The notes under the pieces: generated by a model
The model's input: only the letters and a program-made list of their open reading frames with translations
Databases searched by the model: none
Told to the model about the DNA's origin: nothing
Part shown: positions 32,830 through 37,159 of the stretch, one piece after another
Layout: each line of letters starts with the position of its first letter
Position numbering within the stretch: position 1 is the first letter of the stretch
Position numbers and translations under genes: made by a program
Virus record (IMG/VR): IMGVR_UViG_3300034073_004910
Coordinates: 1 to 64,000 of that record
Reading direction: 5' to 3' (one strand)
Source: a virus
Length of the DNA stretch: 64,000 nt

Positions 32830-33478
32830 CTTACCACTACGTGTTTCCACGCCATTACTGTTTGTGGTCTGGACTTTGTCTTTACCATAGTGTTTCCACT
32901 TTAGGTACCTCGTGTAAAGTCTCTACACTCGTCTTTCGACTAGCACGGCGTTGCCATGACTAAAGGTTTCACCGTTTTAGCGAGGTCCACTTACTAAGTT
33001 TCCCTAGTAAGGCTCTTATTTGTATAGTGCGTTACAATAACTTCTTGCGAGCTAAAAGTTTCTATATTTTGAGAAGCTTTCCCAGCGCAGCTTCTGCTGC
33101 AAAACGGCCCTTTTTTCCTTTGCTTCTATTATGTTTAGCATCGTGTAGCTTTCTCCCTTCTAGGATAAAACTAGAATGGCACACTTCACATATAAAAGTT
33201 TGAGAGCCTATTCGTTTTGCGTCAAGTTTTGCATGTGCTGAGCGGTCAATAACCGCTAAGTTATCAATATCGTTATTAGTAACGTCTCCGTCAATGTGGT
33301 CTACGGTTTCATTTTTGGTAAACTTTCTACCAATATGGTTTTCCATAATAAACTTAGGATATGAAACAGTTTTCTTTGTTCCATCAAGAAACACAATAAC
33401 TATTCTAGATCTATTATCCTTAGCTATGTAGGGGCCATATATTTTTTTAATATTTTCGTAAACCATACACTATACTAA
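32830..33478 (-). other. Group I intron in tRNA-Leu(UAA)
   Basis: The intron ends in the expected G at 32830. The P7 strands are visible: AGAGACTTTACACG at 32911-32924 (R) and GGTAAAGACAAAGTCC at 32871-32886 (S), with GACTT pairing to AAGTC. GTATAGTG just inside the 5' end (33468-33475) is perfectly complementary to CACTATAC at 33022-33029. With the exon CTT and a following AAG this forms a P1 helix whose loop holds the HNH gene. The layout resembles subgroup IC3 introns. Confidence 0.9.
33062..33466 (-). CDS. Intron-encoded HNH homing endonuclease
   Basis: 134 residues lying wholly inside the intron, starting 12 bases after the 5' splice site. The HNH core VDHIDGDVTNNDIDNLAVI is complete, a CEVCHSS zinc-like pair follows, and the C-terminus is basic (HNRSKGKKGRF). 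It would cleave intronless tRNA-Leu alleles to spread the intron. No ribosome site is obvious before the ATG, since that sequence is committed to the P1 helix. Confidence 0.93.
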   Translation of the reverse strand: MVYENIKKIYGPYIAKDNRSRIVIVFLDGTKKTVSYPKFIMENHIGRKFTKNETVDHIDGDVTNNDIDNLAVIDRSAHAKLDAKRIGSQTFICEVCHSSFILEGRKLHDAKHNRSKGKKGRFAAEAALGKLLKI

Positions 33479-33516
33479 AAGTCTGTTGTGTCTACCGATT
33501 CCACCATACCCGCGTA

Positions 33517-33672
33517 TCAATCATACCAATGGCGAAGCACTCCCGCCATAATTACAAAGTTTGTAAGCAGAGTGACTATTACTATCACTGTACGAATCAA
33601 AGCTATAGTGTTTGCTTCTTTGTCCGTACTGCCGCTTTTTTCGCCTAGAGCTTTTGCCCAAAGTCTCCACAT
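33517..33672 (-). CDS. Small membrane protein between tRNAs
   Basis: 51 residues: a charged N-terminus (MWRLWAKALGEKSG), one transmembrane segment (ALIRTVIVIVTLLTNFVI) and a short tail. Similar small proteins occur in other phages. Its best ribosome site (GGGAG) lies within the 3' acceptor strand of tRNA-Thr, so translation may compete with tRNA folding or processing. Confidence 0.7.
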   Translation of the reverse strand: MWRLWAKALGEKSGSTDKEANTIALIRTVIVIVTLLTNFVIMAGVLRHWYD

Positions 33673-33675
33673 ATT

Positions 33676-33751
33676 TGGTGCTCCCAGAGAGAATCGAACT
33701 CCCAACCTACTGATTACAAATCAGTTGCTCTACCTGTTGAGCTATGGAAGC
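33676..33751 (-). tRNA. tRNA-Thr(UGU)
   Basis: 76 bases with CCA encoded. The acceptor GCTTCCA/TGGGAGC (G-U pairs included), D stem GCTC/GAGC, anticodon stem ACTGA/TCAGT with loop TTTGTAA, and T loop TTCGATT are all regular. It is the first stable RNA after the promoter at 33789-33817. Confidence 0.95.
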
Positions 33752-33788
33752 CAAAAATTGCCGAATGCTCTTTTCAAATTTGAAATAT

Positions 33789-33817
33789 AGTATACTTAAA
33801 AAAACTAAAAAAGTCAA
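33789..33817 (-). promoter_or_regulatory. Promoter of the tRNA cluster
   Basis: TTGACT, 17 bases, TATACT on the minus strand, 38 bases upstream of tRNA-Thr. It probably drives tRNA-Thr, the intron-containing tRNA-Leu, speD and the three remaining tRNAs as one transcript. Confidence 0.8.
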
Positions 33818-33825
33818 CATATATT

Positions 33826-34107
33826 TTAGGATATCTTTTTATTTTTGTAAGGGTTATCTTGATAGAAGGTTTTTTGAATCATCCAATTGCATGGATAGTG
33901 AAACACATCTTTTGTTGCAGTAAAAAGCACTGTTTGATAGTCCAGCTCAAGATAACTGAGCCAGCCTGGTTGAGTTTTTTCAATTTGTTTTTTTGAAAGA
34001 ACATCCAAAATTTTATATGGCTCAGAAACTATACATACGTCTACTCCAATAAATTGAAAGTATACTGGATGCCATGTTATGGTAGCAATTGATCCTATTG
34101 GGTGCAT
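33826..34107 (-). CDS. Hypothetical protein
   Basis: 93 residues, beta-rich with a hydrophobic N-terminal half. No domain recognised. Start overlaps the upstream ParB-like gene by 13 bases. Confidence 0.65.
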   Translation of the reverse strand: MHPIGSIATITWHPVYFQFIGVDVCIVSEPYKILDVLSKKQIEKTQPGWLSYLELDYQTVLFTATKDVFHYPCNWMIQKTFYQDNPYKNKKIS

Positions 34108-34499
34108 AATTGATTATGTACTATGATTGCCTCTTCTGGCGTGGAAACAACAATCGAATCAATATTTTCATAATTGTTTCGAAATGCAACTGCTAGTCTT
34201 TGATTTCCAAATAGACAAAGATATGGTTTTTTGGAGTCGTAAAGCGATAAGCAGTTTTCATCGACCGACTGCTTACCGTGATTGTAGGCTTCTAAAGTAT
34301 TTTCTGTAACTATAATTGGATGTTTCATTCCATTTACTAGTATATCGTTTTCCAACTCATAAAAGTTTGGTTGAATTAGTCTACTTTCATGAGTAACAAA
34401 GTTTGCTATAGAACTTACTGGTAGATTTACTACATAGTATGTAGTTGTAACTATCTCAAGCAAAGGAGTGGCTCGAGTTATTGTAAAGCTATCTTTCAT
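34095..34499 (-). CDS. ParB/Srx-like domain protein
   Basis: 134 residues. LENDILVNGMKHPIIVTENT followed by YLCLFGNQRLAVAF recalls the ParB/sulfiredoxin fold, with its 'xxGxxxPIxV ... GxxRxxA' pattern. Phage versions act as nucleases, adaptors or CTPase-like switches. No HTH is present. It overlaps the o-spanin-like gene. Confidence 0.68.
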   Translation of the reverse strand: MKDSFTITRATPLLEIVTTTYYVVNLPVSSIANFVTHESRLIQPNFYELENDILVNGMKHPIIVTENTLEAYNHGKQSVDENCLSLYDSKKPYLCLFGNQRLAVAFRNNYENIDSIVVSTPEEAIIVHNQLCTQ

Positions 34500-34812
34500 G
34501 AATGCTTCGATAGAAGAGTATCACGCTCTGCGATTCTTTGATGTATCGCCGCAATTCCTGCACATTGTGAGACAGGTTTTCGTAGCCTTTTGGCGTAATC
34601 GCAAAAAACGGTTCATTTCCTGCTTTTGCTAAAAACTCGTCTAAATTTTTTTCTGATACGACATAAAATTCTACAGACCGTAATGTAACCGCACTTACGG
34701 GCGCGGCATGAATTATTGGAGTCGGTTCGCAGTAGTTCGGCGCAAGCTCAGGCTTTTGCTGCAAAAGCGAGCATCCGCTTAAAAGTGTTGCACAAATTAT
34801 AAGTTTTTTCAC
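34489..34812 (-). CDS. Outer-membrane lipoprotein, probable o-spanin
   Basis: 107 residues with a lipoprotein signal (MKKLIICATLLSGC, lipobox LLSGC). After the Cys there is a Pro-containing linker and a globular part with a helical C-terminus. Its position directly after a membrane-anchored coiled-coil gene and lysozyme suggests the outer-membrane partner of a two-component spanin. Confidence 0.75.
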   Translation of the reverse strand: MKKLIICATLLSGCSLLQQKPELAPNYCEPTPIIHAAPVSAVTLRSVEFYVVSEKNLDEFLAKAGNEPFFAITPKGYENLSHNVQELRRYIKESQSVILFYRSIHER

Positions 34813-35222
34813 TTTAAAAGCTCAGTTTGAAATTGCTGAGTTTCAGCCTCTATAGTGTCAAATACTTGCTGCGTCGCCCGATTCACTCGTATTTGTATCA
34901 GATTTGGCTTAGCCGCCGATAATTTTGTTAAATCGTGTTTTTGAAATATTTCTTGTGCTTTAGCTGCTTCTTCTCTAATTTTCACCGTGCGAGCATTTAA
35001 ATTATTGAGCTCTAGTGTTTGAGTATTAATGCTTTGAGAAATTCGTTCAAGTGAAGTCGAAAGTTGTTGAATTTGATAAGTTCGCACTTGTAGTTGTGCT
35101 TGAAGAGTTTTATTTGAATTTGAAAGATTATTTACGAAAATATATAAATATGTAAATAATCCTAGAGTACCAAGAATAAAAACGAGGTTAAGAATTCTTT
35201 TAAATTCCAATAGAAAGTTCAT
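34809..35222 (-). CDS. Probable i-spanin (Rz-like)
   Basis: 137 residues. One N-terminal transmembrane segment (LVFILGTLGLFTYLYIFV) is followed by a long coiled coil (NSNKTLQAQLQVRTYQIQQL onward) and a conserved-looking end containing HDL and KPNLIQIRVNRAT. This is the layout of inner-membrane spanins, which fuse with the outer lipoprotein to disrupt the outer membrane. Confidence 0.8.
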   Translation of the reverse strand: MNFLLEFKRILNLVFILGTLGLFTYLYIFVNNLSNSNKTLQAQLQVRTYQIQQLSTSLERISQSINTQTLELNNLNARTVKIREEAAKAQEIFQKHDLTKLSAAKPNLIQIRVNRATQQVFDTIEAETQQFQTELLK

Positions 35223-35703
35223 GAATTATTCTCATTTTGGCAGTTAGTCTTCGAGCTTGTTCGCCATACTGTGCATACCAAAAACTGGACTCCATTTCTT
35301 TAGCTACATTTGCCCAGTTTTTAGTATAAACAGTTGCGATTAATTCTTTCAAAGAAAGGAAATTATCGCGGCCCAGGAAGAACAGCATATTTATTAATAC
35401 TTCCTGGGCCTCGGCAGGGATGGTTTCCCAGTCTGGAAAGATGATTCTGAAGTCAGAAAATGCAATGGCGAGGTCTTCTTCAAACAACTCGCGACTCTGT
35501 GCTTCAGTAATTGTATCGCCTAATTTTAACGAGCGAATAGGTAAAGGATCTTTCTTAGATATTTTATGACCTATTCCTACGGTCAGAAATCCTTCTGTAT
35601 CGCTGTAAACTCTTAACTTTTTTCCTGCGTCAATCTCAAGTTGACGAATTAGACGTTTTAAATTTACTTGTCCAGCATTATGTCTAGGAAACCACCCCAT
35701 CAC
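35200..35703 (-). CDS. T4-type lysozyme (GH24), catalytic Glu position altered
   Basis: 167 residues. RVYSDTEGFLTVGIGH aligns with the T4 lysozyme active-site block: D35 matches T4 D20 and T41 matches T26. The T4 catalytic Glu11 (RIDEG) aligns with A26 in LEIDAG, so the general acid appears missing unless E23, three residues earlier, substitutes. No signal peptide; export would need the holin. It overlaps the i-spanin by 23 bases. Confidence 0.85.
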   Translation of the reverse strand: MMGWFPRHNAGQVNLKRLIRQLEIDAGKKLRVYSDTEGFLTVGIGHKISKKDPLPIRSLKLGDTITEAQSRELFEEDLAIAFSDFRIIFPDWETIPAEAQEVLINMLFFLGRDNFLSLKELIATVYTKNWANVAKEMESSFWYAQYGEQARRLTAKMRIIHELSIGI

Positions 35704-35708
35704 TTATA

Positions 35709-35813
35709 TCAGCCGAAAGGAAGCCCAGATGCTAATTCAAAAGCACCTACGCCTACCATCAACCCAAGAAGGGTAATACCGGCTTTTTCAAAAATGTTGG
35801 AAATCGTGTTCAT
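35709..35813 (-). CDS. Small hydrophobic protein of the lysis cassette
   Basis: 34 residues with a central hydrophobic stretch (GITLLGLMVGVGAFELA). The ATG overlaps the Hsp20 stop as ATGA and the gene directly precedes the lysozyme. It could be a pinholin/antiholin-type peptide, judged only from size and position. Confidence 0.6.
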   Translation of the reverse strand: MNTISNIFEKAGITLLGLMVGVGAFELASGLPFG

Positions 35814-36196
35814 GATTGTATCTCAATATAATTGGCGGGGTTAACTGCCCGAGGCTTGAAAGTAATCTTTAATAGCCCGTCTTTAAACGTAGCGTCTGTC
35901 ACTTCAAGATTTTTTGGTACAAAAAAACTGCGCCGGAATGCTTTTCCACTTATACCCTTATGAATATAAGTTTCTGAGCTTAAACTTTTCTCTCCTTCTA
36001 CAAGCAGAATACCGTTGTCAAAATGAATCTTCACTTGTTCTTTTGACCAACCTGGAAGAGCCAAATCTACTCTATAGTTCTGATCTTCAAGCTTTACGAT
36101 ATTAAACCGAGGAAATGCGTCTACGTTCAGATCGCCAAAAAAGTCTGTAAAAAGCTTATCGCCACCCACAAAGAAGTGGTCAAGTAGTTTAGTCAT
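35810..36196 (-). CDS. Small heat-shock protein (Hsp20/alpha-crystallin)
   Basis: 128 residues. The alpha-crystallin domain is clear: YRVDLALPGWSKEQVKI, ILLVEGEK, FRRSFFVPKNL and the closing DGLLKITF. Hsp20 genes occur in cyanophages and some other large phages, where they may protect phage proteins or help assembly. Strong AGGAG site before the ATG. Confidence 0.93.
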   Translation of the reverse strand: MTKLLDHFFVGGDKLFTDFFGDLNVDAFPRFNIVKLEDQNYRVDLALPGWSKEQVKIHFDNGILLVEGEKSLSSETYIHKGISGKAFRRSFFVPKNLEVTDATFKDGLLKITFKPRAVNPANYIEIQS

Positions 36197-36555: not shown

Positions 36556-36669
36556 ATTATCGAACCCATCCTCTTCCTCGTCTTTATCCCACCAGTCCGA
36601 ACTTTCTCGAGTGGAATAAATATCGTTAACACCAGCAAACAAAAGTATAATAACTAAAAATAAATTCAC
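36538..36669 (-). CDS. Small secreted or membrane protein (GTG start)
   Basis: 43 residues, GTG start with AGGA nine bases upstream. The N-terminus is a hydrophobic segment (NLFLVIILLFAGV); the rest is acidic and Trp-containing (SSDWWDKDEEEDG). It lies just behind the tmRNA coding piece. Confidence 0.5.
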   Translation of the reverse strand: MNLFLVIILLFAGVNDIYSTRESSDWWDKDEEEDGFDNVARIL

Positions 36670-36679
36670 TATTGTTTTC

Positions 36680-36903
36680 CTAATTAGTGGGAGTTTTTCT
36701 GTTGCGAGGAGGTTCCTTTGGGGAACACAAAACTCCCGAAACCCCGAGAAATCATGCTGCTACAGCATATTCCTCATTATAAAAGTCATCGTTTGCTTTT
36801 ATATTTATTTGCTTCTTCGACCGGGAAGTCCCAATCCTAACGGCTTTCGCATTGCCGGATCGTCCGCGTCTTTTTCCTGCTCTGTCGAAACCAGAACACC
36901 CCC
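36680..36903 (-). ncRNA. ssrA: tmRNA coding piece (permuted tmRNA)
   Basis: The RNA starts GGGGGTGTTCTGG then TTTCGACAGAG, the universal 5' tRNA-like domain of tmRNA. A pseudoknot-like region follows, then the resume codon GCA at 36794-36796 and a short frame ending TGA at 36752 that encodes ANDDFYNEEYAVAA, an SsrA degradation tag. Downstream, GGGAGTTTT pairs with AAAACTCCC around inner hairpins. The matching 3' acceptor half is located upstream in the transcript, so the gene is circularly permuted and should give a two-piece RNA. The left boundary is approximate. Confidence 0.93.
36752..36796 (-). CDS. tmRNA-encoded proteolysis tag
   Basis: 14 codons plus stop inside the tmRNA coding piece, peptide ANDDFYNEEYAVAA. 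The AVAA end is the ClpXP/SspB-type degron end, and the whole resembles the Caulobacter tag. It has no start codon because ribosomes resume here after alanine addition. Confidence 0.93.
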   Translation of the reverse strand, partial: ANDDFYNEEYAVAA

Positions 36904-36969
36904 ATCAAAGTATACTCTGTCGCCGTTTTTGCTACGCTGGTAACGACCAAGACCTCAAAGAATATACTT
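36904..36969 (-). other. tmRNA intervening segment
   Basis: 66 bases between the CCA of the acceptor piece and the 5' G of the coding piece, to be removed during maturation. Its ends pair (AAAGTATA with TATACTTT), extending the acceptor stem and closing the precursor, as in permuted tmRNA genes of alphaproteobacteria. Confidence 0.85.
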
Positions 36970-37025
36970 TGGTGGAGGTGGGCGGAGTCGAACCGCCTTC
37001 CAAAACAGTTCCAATCAACATCATA
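36970..37025 (-). ncRNA. ssrA: tmRNA acceptor piece (permuted tmRNA)
   Basis: The T arm GGCGG/CCGCC with TTCGACT loop is followed by CACCTCC and ACCA. CACCTCC pairs with GGGGGTG at the 5' end of the coding piece (seven pairs, one G-U), giving the alanine-accepting stem. The 5' boundary is uncertain; the element at 37029-37104 may belong to the precursor. Confidence 0.9.
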
Positions 37026-37028
37026 CGA

Positions 37029-37104
37029 TCATAATTGCTCAGTTTGGATTCGAACCTTGTCCGTGTATTGTCTACCCGCACGTCCCACCGTACTGACCGA
37101 GCAA
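37029..37104 (-). ncRNA. tRNA-like element preceding the tmRNA acceptor piece
   Basis: TTGCTCGGT pairs with ACTGAGCAA (nine bp) and encloses a TTCGAAT loop and a GTAC/GTGC D-arm-like stem. The T stem pairs only partly, no regular anticodon arm is present and no CCA follows. It may be a decayed tRNA or a folded 5' part of the tmRNA precursor. Confidence 0.4.
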
Positions 37105-37130
37105 ATTTATTTATTTACTTTACAGTGAGT

Positions 37131-37159
37131 ATTATAGTAAATCTTGAGCTAAAGGTCAA
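37131..37159 (-). promoter_or_regulatory. Promoter of the tmRNA precursor
   Basis: TTGACC, 17 bases, TATAAT on the minus strand, preceded by AATTC, giving a transcript start near 37123. Confidence 0.85.

Follow-up and report, generated by a model that had tools for sequence, protein, structure and literature searches.

A phage-encoded permuted tmRNA preceded by a putative tRNA-like leader, candidate member of a new RNA family

The window analysed here is a stretch of 64,000 nucleotides taken from a virus record of 94,402 bases. On its minus strand we observed a tmRNA gene in two pieces, preceded by a promoter-like site and by a second structured RNA. The features of the locus, in window positions and in the approximate order of transcription, are as follows.

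37131..37159, minus strand: sigma-70-like promoter TTGACC-17-TATAAT, from a consensus match alone (11/12)
37034..37106, minus strand: tRNA-like leader RNA, from its fold, covariation and a score of 94.9 bits against a model in which the window copy is included
36661-37062, minus strand: permuted tmRNA, whole, from RF04321 and ARAGORN
36970..37030, minus strand: tmRNA acceptor piece, with the P2 5' strand, T arm, CACCTCC, A73 and encoded CCA, from the RF04321 alignment
36904..36969, minus strand: 66-nt intervening sequence with an 11-pair closing helix and a TGAT end before the coding piece
36661..36903, minus strand: tmRNA coding piece, starting with GGGGGTG, its 3' end placed by ARAGORN only
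36752..36796, minus strand: tag reading frame ANDDFYNEEYAVAA with a TGA stop, from ARAGORN and the sequence

The first-pass annotation of this DNA had claimed that the acceptor half of the gene is transcribed before the coding half and pairs with it over seven bases, and both points were borne out. The 3' strand of the acceptor stem, CACCTCC, lies at 36980-36974 and is followed by the discriminator A and by a CCA that ends at 36970; the coding piece starts with GGGGGTG at 36903 and pairs with CACCTCC at 7/7 positions, the G3.U70 wobble included. The whole-window search gave a match of 116.4 bits to RF04321 (cut-off 47, E 4.9e-22), and ARAGORN called the gene as tmRNA* with the tag ANDDFYNEEYAVAA. 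The acceptor half lying 5' of the coding half, the RF04321 score and the seven-pair G3.U70 acceptor with its CCA confirm that the phage encodes a permuted tmRNA in the two-piece form. The tag frame that had been proposed was recovered at 36796-36752, with its TGA stop codon and a protease-type end, and the 66-base linker is indeed closed by its own ends, through 11 contiguous pairs. The promoter attributed to the gene corresponds to a promoter-like site at 37159-37131, a consensus match only: a scan of both strands of the region gave three sites of at least 9/12, as compared to 2.4 in shuffled sequences, and TTGACC-17-TATAAT has 11/12. The absence of an SmpB gene, noted for the window, extends to the entire record, in which the search with PF01668 gave no match. 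By contrast, the stretch before the acceptor piece, which had been treated as plain upstream sequence, holds at 37034-37106 the second structured RNA, inside the interval that the annotation had itself delimited; 4 nt separate the stem of this leader from the P2 strand of the tmRNA.

Downstream of the tmRNA, at 33062-36196, lie genes for an Hsp20, a lysozyme-like protein, a spanin, tRNA-Thr and an HNH protein; the families matched among the neighbours were Hsp20, tail-lysozyme-like, Rz-like spanin, endolysin and HNH. The order tmRNA, Hsp20, tRNA-Thr is conserved in one other locus (L422).

The terminase shares 47.7% identity, over 98% of its length, with that of a Klebsiella Sugarlandvirus; for the DNA polymerase, the identity to those of T5-like phages is about 44%. 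The terminase and the replication proteins are thus nearest to those of T5-like (Demerecviridae-like) phages and, on this protein similarity, which is not formal taxonomy, the window phage is an uncultured T5-like phage. Among 36 records linked by their terminase, most of which are short, a permuted tmRNA over the cut-off was found in three: a near-identical record with the same gene (G001), G033 (118.4 bits) and G016 (92.6 bits); a fourth (G018) gave a partial match alone (22.7 bits). When the terminase-linked records of at least 60 kb are taken, 3/4 carry the gene. None of five named T5-like phages, T5 included, contained a permuted tmRNA (0/5). A syntenic tmRNA with a different tag, ANDDVYSEDFALAA, is present in L422 and L423.

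The tag had hinted at an alphaproteobacterial affinity, and the annotation had suggested a search with the permuted alpha-type covariance model. The permuted architecture held in this comparison (RF04321, see above) and the alpha affinity did not: the alpha model RF01849 was not the best clade match, and the single clan match kept was the beta model RF01850, with 85.5 bits barely above its cut-off of 84. In a rough tree (131 tips, 83 nt, with a sampling caveat), the window gene groups with other phages and lies closer to a single Burkholderiales gene than to any of the 27 alphaproteobacterial genes. Three further bacterial genes were considered for this tree, which lacks one of them (L260) because its parsing failed. 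Phage and alphaproteobacterial genes were separated by a single label change, as compared to 24.8 when labels were shuffled, a clean split that is partly built in because the phage set was gathered mainly via beta-type patterns and a T-loop test by which many alpha genes are excluded. The relatives of the window phage differ among themselves, in that the beta model fits the G033 tmRNA (105.4 bits) and, as counter-evidence, the alpha model gives the best fit for that of G016 (69.9 bits). An alpha origin deduced from the tag was therefore rejected on the best clade model and the rough tree, by which the window tmRNA appears to be of the beta/phage type rather than of the alpha type.

The first-pass annotation knew of no well-described permuted tmRNA in a phage, a view that the literature does not sustain. 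The available text of PMC9004378 reports tmRNAs from 402 of 18,146 phage genomes; the distinct ones number 133, of which ARAGORN assigns 53 to the two-piece form, 50 of these being marine or aquatic; that of PMC11915505 gives 79 phage tmRNA sequences of all forms. In our own searches, 8/15 named phage records exceeded the RF04321 cut-off, which is not a rate, since the 15 were the five T5-like phages and others chosen by similarity. The eight are phages of Pseudomonas, Acinetobacter (two), Stenotrophomonas, Xanthomonas (two), Alcaligenes and Tunturiibacter, and in seven of these records no tmRNA is annotated at the site; L051, L052, L176, L177 and L178, from Acinetobacter, Pseudomonas and Xanthomonas phages, are permuted tmRNAs of this kind. 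Most hosts of these phages carry a one-piece tmRNA. A ninth record, of a Streptomyces phage, contains a one-piece tmRNA that matches RF04321 weakly. In Tunturiibacter phage Tunturi_4 (L175, 320-1172), a gene annotated as an RF-1 domain peptide chain release factor directly precedes the permuted tmRNA (79.2 bits), possibly two adjacent ribosome-rescue functions.

Scans of IMG/VR by a linker pattern and by a coding-piece pattern give lower bounds on such genes, the latter also taking genes whose permutation is not shown. A strict test, demanding a perfect seven-pair acceptor with G3.U70, was passed by 106 distinct phage genes, and among the loci examined 176 of 188 distinct phage tmRNA* calls carry a tag ending in [LVIMA]AA, a count that ARAGORN may favour. 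SmpB was matched in 0/33 phage records with a permuted tmRNA, some of which are fragments. In bacterial genomes the TTTGATGGGG pattern gave 37 stretches, of which about 15 are expected by chance (an estimate); ARAGORN supported 4/37 of them and RF04321 exceeded its cut-off somewhere in 8/36 of the genomes, and for this reason no claim is built on these matches. Two of 60 Burkholderiales genomes were over the RF04321 cut-off. A permuted tmRNA in a phage is thus not very unusual, and the window tmRNA by itself is a further case of something known.

The intervening sequence of the window gene (36969-36904) folds with a z-score of -3.4, and 0/200 shuffled sequences were equally stable. The TGAT at its end could not be called a phage trait from our first pattern, which itself contained TTTGATGGGG, and an independent sample was therefore taken for the count. 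This sample was drawn by the coding-piece pattern, without linker information, and comprises at least 118 loci; those listed are 52 distinct permuted genes, 10 duplicates and 56 loci at an edge or without a recognisable upstream acceptor. A terminal helix of at least eight pairs was present in 46 of the 52 genes (2.7% in shuffled linkers), the TGAT end in 44 and both in 41. The corresponding numbers in 27 alphaproteobacterial genes, which come from 30 loci of one 58-genome search plus one earlier locus, three being not parsed, were 6, 4 and 3. Compensating changes occur at the helix positions (43 phage sequences). Counts and compensation together indicate that the hairpin is common to many phage genes and to a few bacterial ones.

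The content of the phage linkers varies: it may be a tRNA-Asn, a tRNA-like fold, a small open frame or an RNA of the leader type. In L345 the 78-nt intervening sequence is a canonical tRNA-Asn (GTT), a tRNA gene nested in a tmRNA gene, which makes it clear that the slot can hold tRNA-type RNAs; this is the one such case among the 106 strict-test genes. In L531 (about 1700-2120) a small open reading frame is visible, by eye, in an intervening sequence of about 210 nt. That of G016, the T5-like relative (L048, 1128-1216), folds in a tRNA-like manner with a T-loop-type GGGTTCGAGTCCC and fits the tRNA models poorly (best tRNA-Sec, 11.8 bits).

The leader RNA consists of a closing stem P1 of 9-10 bp, a P2 of 5 bp with the loop GUGGGA, a P3 of 3 bp with the loop GACAA, and a T-loop-type GGUUCGAAUCC. 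The window copy (37034-37104) folds with a z-score of -2.4, and 2/200 shuffled sequences were as stable. The core is near-invariant, while the closing stem varies freely with compensation; in L422 and L423 the leader is conserved, with compensating changes. In an alignment of 22 sequences the covariation measure was 0.625, as compared to 0.198 in shuffled and at most 0.063 in slid alignments, with double changes in 14/17 pairs. When 69 sequences were aligned (the 70 distinct copies described below minus a truncated one), it was 0.657 as compared to 0.198 and at most 0.147, and 17/18 pairs were altered on both sides in some sequence. The weakest helix is P3, with 77% of cells paired and an A.C outer pair in 47/69. 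Unguided mutual information ranked the P1, P2 and P3 pairs first; it also links columns 15 and 27 with 49 through a switch between U.G and C.A, which we read as a tertiary wobble pair; it might also be the mark of two lineages.

No Rfam family (Rfam 15), the glutamine riboswitch and the tRNA family RF00005 included, matched the window copy at E up to 10, and the copy of L548 gave under the same limit one match of 5.5 bits on the other strand. ARAGORN made no tRNA call over the leader. An ordinary or decayed tRNA was rejected on these grounds, since neither ARAGORN nor Rfam sees one. An alternative reading of the first part as a D arm (GUC/GAC) was also discarded, because by eye it is broken in L422, where the long closing stem is compensated. 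Nor do the copies often end in CCA: an encoded CCA adjoins the stem in 6 of the 70 distinct copies listed (by a crude test), which is about the chance level by estimate, and the window copy has none. We read the leader, from its fold and covariation, as an anticodon-less tRNA-like RNA.

In IMG/VR the leader pattern gave 36 stretches, about two chance matches being expected (an estimate), and a relaxed pattern at least 119 stretches, with less than one expected by chance. In the loci examined there are at least 123 copies, at least 70 of them distinct. Of the 70 distinct copies listed, 18 lie directly against a permuted tmRNA on its 5' side, nine are the intervening sequence of one (three of the nine by a stricter test), four lie within 700 nt of a tmRNA, 19 stand beside tRNA genes and 20 are elsewhere, without a callable tmRNA or tRNA nearby. 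No tmRNA on the opposite strand was found near a leader copy among the tmRNAs called, and the distance from the start of the core to the CCA end is usually 119-135 nt. In L517 (7700-7824) the element is retained and the tmRNA acceptor piece behind it looks, by eye, truncated; perhaps the tmRNA was lost here and the element kept. A second conserved stretch is visible by eye just upstream of the element in L549, L558, L584, L608, L611, L614, L615, L626 and L628; it starts near GCGATGG, contains a varying hairpin and ends in AAACCAGAAA.

Among the carrier records, many of them fragments, 2/29 have a terminase like that of the window phage, one weakly, so that the leader seems to be no T5-like speciality. 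The leader model gave no match in the T5-like relatives G033 and G016. Among phage sources, many of which, not all, hold a permuted tmRNA, it matched strongly in 2/100 and 1/100 (3/200). The leader is therefore missing from most phage tmRNA loci examined, G033 and G016 among them, and the tmRNA does not need it. A search of 50,697 records of cultured phages with the window copy gave no credible match (best E 0.6, inside coding genes), and the model found nothing in 12 named phage records except a weak match to a tRNA. Among 143 bacterial genomes, with at most 35 candidates scored per genome, none exceeded 29 bits, and two weak matches were tRNAs. Ten matches of the model were weak (17-29 bits), and all eight that were checked were ordinary tRNAs. 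In the literature searched, where subscription journals are thinly covered, there was no paper on such an RNA. The family is thus apparently undescribed, and the leader represents a candidate new RNA family. It is reasonably probable that 37034-37106 belongs to an undescribed, widespread phage RNA family of about 70 nt, tRNA-like, lacking an anticodon and with an invariant core, which occurs as a tmRNA leader, as an intervening sequence or as a member of tRNA arrays and would have a role in making or tuning the translation RNAs of the phage.

We consider it likely, judging from the sequence of the locus and its relatives, that the locus is one transcription unit giving a working permuted tmRNA, with a leader from an apparently undescribed phage RNA family. 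Transcription would run from the promoter-like site through the folded tRNA-like leader, the acceptor piece and the hairpin intervening sequence to the coding piece. Host RNase P would cut before GGGGG and host 3' processing would trim to the CCA, giving two RNAs joined through the acceptor stem and P2. The acceptor is of the alanine type (G3.U70), the CCA is encoded and the tag is of the degradation type; the host alanyl-tRNA synthetase would charge the tmRNA and host SmpB would deliver it to ribosomes that have stalled on broken mRNA of phage or host, where the added tag would mark the product for host proteases. Ordinary trans-translation with these two host proteins is the most likely function of the window tmRNA. 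The leader might serve as a tRNA look-alike for the tRNA-processing machinery and thereby allow the release of the tmRNA or tRNA next to it. That it is recognised in this way is a tentative proposal; a processing role is the simplest reading because of the tRNA outline and the location among tRNAs, even in the tmRNA slot. An encoded CCA would favour it, and its frequency, as seen above, is not above chance.

The main rival to processing, possible and yet doubtful, is that the leader is a riboswitch-like ligand sensor, or an element that binds tRNA or CCA, and regulates the tmRNA or neighbouring genes. Aptamers typically combine, as here, a near-invariant core with a closing stem that varies freely, and copies in L507 and L508 precede, by eye, an open frame with a ribosome-binding-like site; moreover, PMC9004378, in its available text, ties a glutamine riboswitch to the tmRNA of phage Melnitz and proposes that it regulates that tmRNA. 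The riboswitch families of Rfam, however, gave no match at E up to 10, the 4 nt from stem to P2 strand leave little room for a switch, and for the copies in intervening sequences or tRNA arrays there is no gene on which a switch could act in the ordinary manner.

It is rather improbable that the window gene is a real tmRNA with a purpose other than rescue, such as tagging host proteins for recycling, as suggested in the available text of PMC9004378, or titrating SmpB as a decoy. According to that of PMC11915505, phage DS6A has a tmRNA form without a tag that inhibits the host tmRNA in E. coli, but in the window gene the tag frame, the resume region and the stop codon are all intact, and it is hence not of the tag-less type. 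That a host tmRNA gene was captured and now drifts functionless, the leader being a decayed tRNA, is very improbable: the record lacks an SmpB match and L517 keeps the leader with an apparent remnant of the acceptor piece (by eye), but 106 distinct phage genes have the strict, perfect seven-pair G3.U70 acceptor, changes in the linker helix compensate, relatives keep the tag frame intact, and the leader covaries strongly and in L422 looks, by eye, better conserved than the adjacent tmRNA.

Phages often have tRNAs, and some have tmRNAs. A conserved RNA that accompanies both, on the same strand as the tmRNA and at a near-fixed spacing, suggests one processing or control scheme, and offers a concrete experimental handle on the maturation of tmRNAs and tRNAs. 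The leader would also be a tRNA-shaped RNA lacking an anticodon. It resembles a tRNA (RF00005) in its acceptor-like stem of at least seven pairs, followed by two bases and a D-arm-like hairpin with GG in the loop, in its T-loop-type GGUUCGAAUCC, and in its occurrence in tRNA arrays; those of the weak matches to its model that were checked proved to be tRNAs. It departs from a tRNA in having no anticodon arm (3 bp and a GACAA loop instead) and a two-pair T stem, and in an invariant core beside a variable acceptor and discriminator, and it is missed by ARAGORN and Rfam. The window gene is like the merged family RF04321 and RF01850 in the order of its pieces, the G3.U70 acceptor stem, the CCA, the tRNA-like domain, the tag frame and the scores; it differs from these families in a long-helix intervening sequence with TGAT (phage 41/52, alphaproteobacterial 3/27), and its locus adds the leader RNA. 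The closest precedents come from the available text of PMC9004378: the ssrA gene of phage Melnitz, which is in two pieces, and the 53 phage tmRNAs of two-piece form counted there, which are likewise phage-borne, permuted and behind a promoter. Melnitz, as described there, is an OM43 myophage whose tmRNA is of the alpha type, with a glutamine riboswitch predicted in the 3' domain, whereas the window presents an apparently T5-like phage, a tmRNA probably of the beta/phage type, and a different RNA in the leader.
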